A stretch of 64,000 nucleotides of DNA from contig JAJFGB010000006.1 in assembly GCA_021776335.1 (NCBI GenBank), positions 62,001-126,000 of the forward strand, read 5' to 3'. This DNA comes from Hyphococcus sp. (GTDB lineage: Bacteria; Pseudomonadota; Alphaproteobacteria; Caulobacterales; Parvularculaceae). Position numbers and translations under genes: made by a program. Below, one piece after another: positions 44,206 to 45,529 of this stretch; position 1 is the first letter of the stretch; every line of letters starts with the position of its first letter. Under the pieces are notes generated by a model. The model made no database searches, was not told where the DNA came from, and was given only the letters and a program-made list of their open reading frames with translations.

Positions 44206-44213
44206 TTCAGTCT

Positions 44214-44262
44214 CCGACGCTTAAAGGTAACTGTAATTTATACGGATACGTTTAAGCGTCGG
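44214..44262 (-). promoter_or_regulatory. Promoter of the Rrf2 gene within a 12-bp inverted repeat
   Basis: CCGACGCTTAAA (44214-44225) and TTTAAGCGTCGG (44251-44262) are perfect inverted copies 25 nt apart. Read leftward, TATAAA at 44242-44237 is a good -10 box, and TTAACC at 44266-44261 a weak -35 at 18-nt spacing. One arm falls in the leader just before the ATG; the other overlaps the -35. A regulator bound to both arms would cover the promoter. Confidence 0.6.
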
Positions 44263-44344
44263 TTAATCTGTCGAAAAATATGGGTCTGCGACCGCGGGCC
44301 TAATCCGTAATACCATCAGATACGAATTTAGCGGGCGTGCCCGG

Positions 44345-44455
44345 TAACAAAAAGCGCGGAAGCTGGGGGGCAGCTTCCGCGCTAGATAAATCGCTGCGGC
44401 TAAGGGAGGTGCGTCCTAACAGGGGGGGGGCGTGGGGACGGCGCCGCAGCGATCA
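44345..44455 (-). ncRNA. Candidate C-rich structured RNA (3' UTR or small RNA)
   Basis: Read on the minus strand after the short membrane-peptide gene. Hairpin A has a perfect 11-bp stem ATCGCTGCGGC / GCCGCAGCGAT (44390-44400 with 44442-44452) closing a 41-nt loop rich in C. The loop contains CCCCACGCCCCCCCC and GCACCTCCCTT. Hairpin B is the terminator, with loop GCCCCCC. The string CACCTCC equals the anti-Shine-Dalgarno core at the 16S rRNA 3' end. C-rich unpaired loops mark a known class of alphaproteobacterial small RNAs. No expression evidence is available; the call is structural. Confidence 0.5.
44349..44383 (-). terminator. Perfect Rho-independent terminator with C-rich loop
   Basis: AGCGCGGAAGCT / AGCTTCCGCGCT, twelve perfect pairs, loop GCCCCCC on the minus strand, followed by TTTTGTT. 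It ends the transcript of the short membrane-peptide gene and the candidate RNA. Confidence 0.93.
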
Positions 44456-44466
44456 GGGGTTCTATG

Positions 44467-44583
44467 TTAGGCAATGACGCCGCGGGTGGCGAAATCAGCA
44501 ACTGCATACAGAACGACGCCCAACAGGCCCGCTAGGGCAAAGGTAGCGCCGGCTTGGAAGGCAAAATTACGGAATGTGGTCAT
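44467..44583 (-). CDS. Very short single-pass membrane peptide (38 aa)
   Basis: MTTFRNFAFQAGATFALAGLLGVVLYAVADFATRGVIA: a short basic start and one membrane helix of about 22 residues. I do not recognise the family. The track ORF extends 47 residues upstream without support; an ATG six codons upstream (44601) is also possible. A sigma70-like promoter lies about 100 nt upstream and a perfect terminator about 85 nt downstream, so it is a complete transcription unit. The downstream C-rich structured RNA may be the main product, with this peptide as its companion. Confidence 0.6.
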   Translation of the reverse strand: MTTFRNFAFQAGATFALAGLLGVVLYAVADFATRGVIA

Positions 44584-44688
44584 GGCTATGTCTTTCTTCA
44601 TTCTGATCGGTAGATCGTTTCTTGTTCTTGATGCTTCTGGAGGCTTGTTCCACCCGGTGGCGGGACCATCTCCATCAGCGATGAAGGT

Positions 44689-44717
44689 GAGATAGGCGCT
44701 CACTGAAGAGTTGTCAA
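44689..44717 (-). promoter_or_regulatory. Sigma70-like promoter of the short membrane peptide / C-rich RNA unit
   Basis: Minus strand TTGACA (44717-44712), 17-nt spacer, TATCTC (44694-44689). The -35 is perfect and the -10 matches four of six. The predicted transcript would start near 44683 and run about 335 nt to the terminator at 44349. Confidence 0.65.
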
Positions 44718-44884
44718 TGAACATTGTGCTAAGTATTCATTTTTTTTCGTTATAATTTCTATCCAACCGGGCAGATCGGCTAACTTACTAGGTGTTTATC
44801 TGGGTCTTTGAGAGATATGTCTGCTCACCTCGCGTTTTTGTGACGTGAGACGATATAATATAGCGCCACAATATAGCGTGGGCG

Positions 44885-45529
44885 CTACGCGACAGAGCTT
44901 GTCGGACTGGGCTTGCCGGCTGAAACGCTATGTGCTGCGCGCCAGGCAAAACCATCCAAAACGAGGTCGATGATGCCATTGAGCTCCGCAGCAAGCTCAT
45001 CAAACTCGCCCTCATGGAAGACAGCCGGGCTTGTAAAACGATAACCGGCATCCTGCAGGATTTTCGCGATACCAGACACGTCCTCAATGACGAAGCTGCC
45101 GTCAGTGTTTCCAAGCATCAGAATTTCCGATAATACCCTGCCCTCGGCATTTTCCCACTCAAGTGCTACTTTTGGACGGGCCGTAAGGAGTTCGCTGGAC
45201 AGCTCGTAGGCCTTCGGTTTGTCGTGAAACCGCTCATAAGCGAGTTTAAATTTAAGTATGAAAAACAAACGCAGCTTTTCCGCCGGGCTGCTGACTCTGT
45301 CATCCAAAACTTCGCGGAGGTTTGCGACCTGCTCACGACGGAGTTCCCGCACAAAGCTTTCCGCAATGTCCAGCTTGGACGCAAAATACCGGTAGAGGTT
45401 GCCGGTGGACATATTGCAGTCCTTAGCAATCTCGGACATGGTTGTTTTGCCGTAACCGTAATGCAGAAAGCGCCGACTCGCGGCGTGAAGAATTTGCTTT
45501 GCAGTTTCGTCTAGATTTTCTGTCGGCAT
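44885..45529 (-). CDS. TetR-family transcriptional regulator
   Basis: 214 residues. N-terminal TetR helix-turn-helix: AKQILHAASRRFLHYGYGKTTMSEIAKDCNMSTGNLYRYFASKLDIAESFV. The C-terminal ligand domain resembles a TetR_C group in which YRFTSPAVFHEGEFDELAAELNGIIDLVLDG is conserved. Ligand unknown. It is divergent from gpsA with only 66 nt between, so it may control itself and possibly gpsA through the repeat in that gap. Confidence 0.92.
   Translation of the reverse strand: MPTENLDETAKQILHAASRRFLHYGYGKTTMSEIAKDCNMSTGNLYRYFASKLDIAESFVRELRREQVANLREVLDDRVSSPAEKLRLFFILKFKLAYERFHDKPKAYELSSELLTARPKVALEWENAEGRVLSEILMLGNTDGSFVIEDVSGIAKILQDAGYRFTSPAVFHEGEFDELAAELNGIIDLVLDGFAWRAAHSVSAGKPSPTSSVA

Follow-up and report, generated by a model that had tools for sequence, protein, structure and literature searches.

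A TetR-linked gene for a small membrane peptide carries a conserved, covarying C-rich RNA at its 3′ end in Parvularculaceae

Introduction

Can the mRNA of a very small membrane peptide carry a second product in its 3′ part? This question is raised by a locus of Hyphococcus sp. that lies in the window, the whole 64,000-nucleotide stretch of DNA analysed here, to which all positions refer. A sequence-only reading had described it as a structured RNA with C-rich single strands behind a 38-aa membrane peptide, and had likened the RNA to alphaproteobacterial small RNAs (sRNAs) that pair with ribosome-binding sites.

Several C-rich RNAs provide the background for such a proposal. AlphaR8/SisA, with an unpaired C-rich UUUCCUCCCU core, represses G-rich translation starts, and alphaR8 usually lies next to an FGase gene (PMC12559287). 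The C-rich loops of sX13 of Xanthomonas act on mRNAs with G-rich motifs near their starts (PMC3771888), and repression of G-rich starts by RNAs with CCUCCUCCC hairpins was proposed by the authors who described them (PMC3927594). The CcsR RNAs of Rhodobacter are co-transcribed with the DUF1127 protein CcaF1 (PMC10253847), and the CcsR/cuckoo RNAs consist of several hairpin modules with an RpoHI/HII promoter (PMC10253847, PMC3927594). The present analysis adds an RNA family and a family of conserved, probably TetR-controlled membrane peptides of 30–45 aa across a bacterial order, both apparently undescribed; our literature search, itself incomplete, returned no description of the unit.

Results

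Anatomy of the transcription unit

On the minus strand, positions 44345–44741 hold in order an operator, a promoter, a 5′UTR, a 38-codon open reading frame, a stem-loop and an intrinsic terminator. The gene of a TetR-family regulator adjoins the unit upstream on the same strand, as it does in nearly all Parvularculaceae loci. The features are as follows.

44885–45529, minus strand: TetR-family regulator, the likely repressor of the unit (Pfam TetR_N, 1.8e-13; TetR_C_27, 4.8e-9)
44716–44741, no strand assigned: operator palindrome AATGAATACTTAGCACAATGTTCATT, that is AATGAATACT-N6-AATGTTCATT, over the −35 box; conserved in the alignment
44689–44717, minus strand: promoter, read directly as TTGACA (44717–44712), a 17-nt spacer and TATCTC (44694–44689)
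44584–44682, minus strand: 5′UTR with a presumed start; AACAAGAAACGA and GATCAGAATGA are conserved ahead of the start codon in aligned homologues
44467–44583, minus strand: single-transmembrane peptide of 38 aa, MTTFRNFAFQAGATFALAGLLGVVLYAVADFATRGVIA, with homologous peptides in relatives
44389–44454, minus strand: outer stem of the C-rich RNA, pairing 44454–44443 with 44400–44389
44412–44440, minus strand: inner hairpin CGUCC…GGACG from folding, with a C-rich apical loop that is CCCCCCCCC in the window and CCCCUCCCC-like in most homologues
44401–44411, minus strand: single-stranded CACCUCCCUUA, the presumed pairing site, with the conserved core CCUCCC
44348–44383, minus strand: intrinsic terminator of 12 bp (44383–44353 plus U run) with the loop GCCCCCC

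We consider this anatomy, together with selection on the RNA, as close to certain. The −35 and −10 elements named by the sequence-only reading are present with their 17-nt spacing, and both TTGACA and CCTAT(c)T are kept across the aligned homologues. A scan with a sigma-70 consensus pattern did not report the promoter of the unit, because TATCTC has no T at position 6. The perfect 12-bp terminator hairpin with its GCCCCCC loop is likewise as first described, and a U run follows it.

A single-transmembrane peptide under coding selection

The 38-codon frame at 44583–44467, earlier called a membrane peptide on sight, has homologues of 38–39 aa that share a hydrophobic span in the middle and whose end is conserved (ADFATRGVIA, for example). 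In this frame the median pN/pS is 0.46, whereas the alternative frames give 1.02 and 1.44; since synonymous sites are near saturation, we take this value as a sign of selection and not as a rate. The peptide has no family match in Pfam (curated cut-off), NCBIfam or PADLOC. Its length and single transmembrane span resemble those of toxins from type I toxin–antitoxin loci, in which case the peptide would be a membrane toxin and the RNA its antidote. Here, however, the RNA lies downstream on the same strand rather than in antisense; the unit, which has a TetR operator in front of it, occurs as a single copy in its own genome and stays in the gpsA–tsaD interval, and PADLOC reports no such locus, so that we regard a toxin–antitoxin-like function as extremely improbable.

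A conserved operator links the unit to a probable TetR repressor

The operator, an element overlooked by the sequence-only reading, has a 22-bp core of the form TGAA-N14-TTCA. Of 86 close TetR loci, 83 have the sequence TGAA-N14-TTCATTG behind the TetR gene, as do 54 of the 65 distant ones, and its reversed pattern follows the gene in none; the counts are redundant in that some genomes were entered more than once. Its overlap with the −35 box implies that binding would repress the promoter, and control of the unit by TetR through this conserved operator is in our judgement highly probable. In one genome (G047, loci L217/L218) the unit lies ~13 kb from its TetR gene and still has operator, peptide and RNA. 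The sequence of the regulator is most similar to that of KstR2, and QacR and FadR-type regulators come lower in the match list; this hints at an acyl-CoA or a hydrophobic compound as inducer. A regulon of several TetR operators was rejected, since its own genome holds a single site at ≤1 mismatch.

Stress control had been suggested for the locus on account of its flanking regulators, Rrf2 and TetR. The conserved operator points to TetR as the likely regulator; Rrf2 was rejected as regulator or part of the unit, because several relatives retain the unit in an interval that lacks rrf2. At 44210–44265, directly ahead of the rrf2 start codon, CCGACGCTTAAA and TTTAAGCGTCGG form an inverted repeat without mismatch, which may serve Rrf2 as an operator or fold as a leader hairpin. 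An Rfam match to mir-249 was discarded as a chance similarity to this repeat.

Fold of the C-rich RNA

The 118-nt RNA at 44466–44349 folds with −53.3 kcal/mol, compared with −27.2 ± 2.9 kcal/mol for shuffled sequences (z = −9). The outer stem forms 12 pairs, 11 of them Watson–Crick, and encloses 42 nt. The sequence-only reading had seen a perfect 11-bp stem with a C-rich 41-nt loop; the stem stands, and the loop is not open. As its 42 nt hold the inner hairpin CGUCC/GGACG, CACCUCCCUU (44411–44402) comes to lie in the 3′ part of the internal loop; the apical loop contains the long C run. CCUCCC is predicted to be unpaired with a probability of 0.99 in the window RNA and of 0.67–1.0 in the other homologues scored. 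While CACCTCCCTT occurs once in the window, CACCTCC occurs four times (on two strands), so that this 7-mer by itself is weak evidence. We rejected the notion that C-rich terminator loops are a habit of the region: only one of six terminator-like hairpins in the 64 kb has a C-only loop. Nor were C-rich terminator loops seen in most of the inspected loci from families f2 and f4 of the same order.

Conservation and covariation of the C-rich RNA

We aligned the homologous RNAs in two ways. In a first alignment of 22 sequences by MAFFT, 14 of the 22 predicted pairs show compensatory change. This alignment gave the same helices as a later one of 33 sequences, A3, which was fitted to the RNA model and leans towards the model structure. 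In A3, 96.4% of cells pair, compared with 83.4% in shuffles, and the covariation score is 0.485, compared with 0.214 ± 0.012 in shuffles and 0.05–0.12 (at most 0.119) in slid versions. Covariation in aligned homologues had been named by the sequence-only reading as a check on its claim, and it is found in the outer stem, where both partners of each of the 10 modelled pairs vary without loss of pairing (93.9% of cells are paired). The terminator stem is paired in 98.5% of cells, and no row of A3 lacks CCC in the loop of its terminator.

The unpaired strands are conserved more tightly than the stems that carry them: the information content per column is 0.96 bits in the outer stem, 1.67–2.0 bits in CCUCCC and 2.0 bits in GGAC. 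GGAC is invariant (33/33), CCCC is found in the apical region of all 33 sequences, and CCTCCC follows GGAC at a distance of ≤18 nt in 32 of them. CACCTCC, the stretch common to the 3′ end of 16S rRNA, is present in only nine of the 33. The conserved element is therefore a 6-nt pyrimidine strand, whose complement GGGAGG is a subset of Shine–Dalgarno sequences; the anti-Shine–Dalgarno-like character first proposed for the RNA is retained, but the RNA does not copy the 3′ end of 16S rRNA exactly. Covariation and conservation across 33 genomes argue that the RNA is real and under selection, and fixed CCUCCC and GGAC on varying stems form the pattern of an sRNA seed on a scaffold. The description of a structured RNA with C-rich single strands behind a small membrane peptide thus holds for RNA and coding frame alike.

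Distribution within and beyond Parvularculaceae

At the DNA level, 25 of 100 relatives searched had a match, and once oriented these loci contain the unit in full. The RNA itself was traced with a model, R1, to 33 Parvularculaceae genomes, mostly of Marinicaulis, a weak match in G038 being left out of this number. Operator, promoter, transmembrane peptide, pyrimidine-rich RNA and terminator occur together in 33/33 Parvularculaceae loci. A search of genome contigs with the operator pattern recovered complete units at L092, L094 and L095, which belong to genomes outside the model set; as the operator search alone led to them, they provide independent support. Several RNA copies in the own genome were rejected, since there is one strong copy and three weak matches were not taken as copies. 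Among 385 genomes drawn across the class, R1 at E ≤ 1e-4 matched the own genome and one of the 384 others (G602, borderline), the latter being rejected as a terminator match on inspection by eye.

Orthologous TetR genes, mostly of 32–42% identity, are present in families f2 and f4. Those inspected lie mostly next to gpsA and/or tsaD and are followed by an operator of the same type and one or two single-transmembrane peptides of ~30–46 aa with unrelated sequences. Operator and transmembrane peptide are found in 47 of 52 loci of other families, and a loose motif test, which accepts any C-run within 190 nt, is positive in 16 of the 47. Since other families keep TetR, operator and membrane peptide mostly without a C-rich RNA, the RNA is a lineage-specific addition to an older TetR–peptide pair and, as these distant relatives keep the peptide, is not needed for its basic role. 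Loci that keep a peptide and lack the stems and C-rich loops, which the sequence-only reading had counted as an argument against its RNA, thus exist in other families and are absent from the 33 Parvularculaceae loci.

The persistence of TetR, operator and peptide in families without the RNA would also suit a reading in which this pair alone matters and the RNA amounts to no more than a terminator region whose C-rich loops are incidental. Yet a pyrimidine-rich RNA is present in all 33 Parvularculaceae loci as against a third or so of the loci elsewhere by the loose motif test, and covariation, the folding z score and near-invariant CCUCCC largely refute an incidental RNA, which we consider very unlikely.

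Two groups outside Parvularculaceae carry related arrangements. Aquidulcibacter/Phycosocius loci have the operator, a 37-aa peptide and, in most, a CACGUC-C7-GGACGUG hairpin together with a C-loop terminator. They score weakly with R1 (E 8e-5 to 6e-3), and their C-rich hairpins may reflect common descent or convergence. In genus g22 of family f4 (L156, L161, L155, L159, L167), peptides of ~30 aa of the type MTKF...FAPVAxAxLxQAAQIVA occur, often several per region; the codons at the end of the peptide gene double as the 5′ arm of a hairpin (GATCGTCGCC/GGCGACGATC), the loop of which is C-rich. A terminator follows, often with a C-rich loop too, and these weak R1 matches lie away from the TetR locus. 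Separately, f4 loci such as L180, L187, L191 and L194 encode a second, different transmembrane peptide (MSAQDLPATARALSVVVAIALVATALAPLLFAAARVVA-like), which follows the TetR-linked one at a distance of a few hundred bases and precedes tsaD.

Comparison with known C-rich RNAs

The RNA shares the display principle of alphaR8, CcsR/cuckoo, ar14 and sX13: as in the class of C-rich anti-Shine–Dalgarno sRNAs, a scaffold with covariation carries a C-rich strand that is both conserved and unpaired. It lacks the tested defining features of these families. AlphaR8/MmgR/SisA (RF00519, suhB) is also alphaproteobacterial and has an unpaired CCUCCC anti-Shine–Dalgarno-like strand between hairpin and terminator. 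Its 10-mer UUUCCUCCCU, however, occurs in 0/33 sequences here, and the present RNA forms the 3′ tail of an mRNA that encodes a peptide and starts behind a TetR operator. The window RNA gave no match above gathering with the RF00519 covariance model, which is sensitive in this setting: it finds the suhB RNA (MmgR) of the own genome with 59.7 bits (G000:C5:171334-171411, L103). In genus g14, the loci L119 and L201 have a TetR-linked 45-aa peptide followed by UUUCCUCCCG before the terminator, which resembles the alphaR8 10-mer (seen in L119).

The CcsR/cuckoo RNAs with CcaF1 and SmelA075/SmelA099 are similar in their C-rich-loop hairpins, in a small protein gene ahead (CcsR) and in a 3′ terminator, but their loop motif CCUCCUCCC is found in 0/33 sequences; unlike in CcsR, the peptide here is a transmembrane peptide with no DUF1127 match, behind a TetR-operator promoter. 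sX13 (RF02232) also shows C-rich loops on stable stems, but is a stand-alone, gammaproteobacterial RNA; a single homologue, L023, matches it, with 29.2 bits (E 0.049; gathering 50). With ar14 (RF02344), an alphaproteobacterial C-rich sRNA that the sequence-only reading had offered as an analogue, the best and sole matching homologue is L092 with 31.5 bits (E 0.017; gathering 58.8). In the Rfam search suggested along with that analogy, the window RNA itself matches neither ar14 nor any other family. As its homologues give sub-threshold matches only, membership in a known Rfam family was rejected; the two matches, both to C-rich sRNAs of this kind, nevertheless count in favour of a start-blocking function.

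Candidate targets

The sRNAs known to block G-rich starts typically combine stems of drifting sequence with C-rich strands that stay conserved and unpaired, from which we infer that the 3′ part of the transcript may act likewise. A pool of targets exists: GGGAGG-N3-9-ATG occurs at 131 sites in the genome, compared with 26 for the reversed pattern, although many of these need not be real starts. Because the flanks of CCUCCC vary among homologues, targets would have to tolerate a seed of 6–7 nt. The extended complement AGGGAGGT is found near ATG at one site in the genome, before a 21-aa ORF. A perfect 11-nt complement (GGGAGGTGCGT before ATG) was rejected as a target, since it lies inside a peptidase-like ORF and not at a start. 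Pairing with the starts of TetR, GpsA, TsaD, HemC, Rrf2 and the peptide itself is weak only, and no convincing strong or conserved target emerged from these searches.

With longer complementarity essentially absent, cis-acting roles are a serious rival. Stem-loops at the 3′ end often protect mRNAs, and in all 33 loci the RNA is attached to the peptide mRNA. Its hairpins might mainly stabilise or localise that mRNA, as an exonuclease block, a protein site or a means of membrane delivery, with the C-rich strands binding a protein or their own transcript; the lack of a convincing trans target also fits. Protection would need the stems only, yet few parts of the RNA are as well conserved as the unpaired CCUCCC, and the stem sequence drifts, and pairing of CACCUCCC with the start region of the peptide itself is very weak (−1.9 kcal/mol). 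We therefore consider a purely cis-acting 3′UTR as doubtful. A further alternative is that the C-rich strands dock a purine-rich sponge or regulator, with the peptide mRNA as the regulated partner. G/A-rich CrfA binds C-rich alphaR8 RNAs (SisA) in Caulobacter (PMC12559287), and the own genome carries an alphaR8/suhB RNA; two covarying hairpins with three C-rich strands are, however, more than docking would require, and this alternative seems unlikely.

Discussion

For the trans-acting reading, we propose the following sequence of events. Without inducer, TetR would occupy TGAA-N14-TTCA over the −35 box and hold the promoter off. An inducer, by analogy probably a hydrophobic compound or an acyl-CoA, would allow synthesis of a single transcript of ~335–340 nt, the 5′ part of which would yield a single-span inner-membrane peptide and the 3′ part a two-hairpin RNA, either freed by processing or acting as a 3′UTR. 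This RNA would present three C-rich strands, in the apical loop, in the internal loop (CCUCCC) and in the terminator loop, and these may pair with GGGAGG-type initiation regions of other mRNAs, so that their translation would be lowered while the peptide acts at the membrane; some benefit may be supposed to come from this arrangement. By analogy with the start-blocking sRNAs, we judge it marginally probable that de-repression makes a peptide together with a C-rich, 3′UTR-derived sRNA by which translation starts rich in G are blocked. Taken by itself, such pairing in trans appears evenly balanced.

A broader version of this reading is put forward tentatively. It sees a TetR-switched gene with dual output, in which one inducer would release both the peptide and an sRNA that lowers many GGGAGG-type mRNAs; the sRNA would have been added in few lineages to an ancient, order-wide TetR–peptide module, the peptides of which have diverged beyond recognition. 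If so, the hairpins of Aquidulcibacter/Phycosocius and of the genus with arrays of 30-aa peptides would mean that tiny membrane peptides became coupled to C-rich RNAs either repeatedly or long ago. If the trans-acting reading is true, the locus would offer a clean natural system, in which one repressor–ligand event leads to a single mRNA that supplies both a small protein and an sRNA, and relatives without the RNA are a ready comparison for how a 3′UTR gains regulatory function.

A further C-rich element was observed apart from the unit. In a Marinicaulis-type genome, a second R1 match (L160, G015:C104:20157-20244; E 2.4e-6) consists of UUCCUCCC and a C-loop terminator, with no operator–peptide unit within the stretch viewed, and is perhaps an independent C-rich sRNA.
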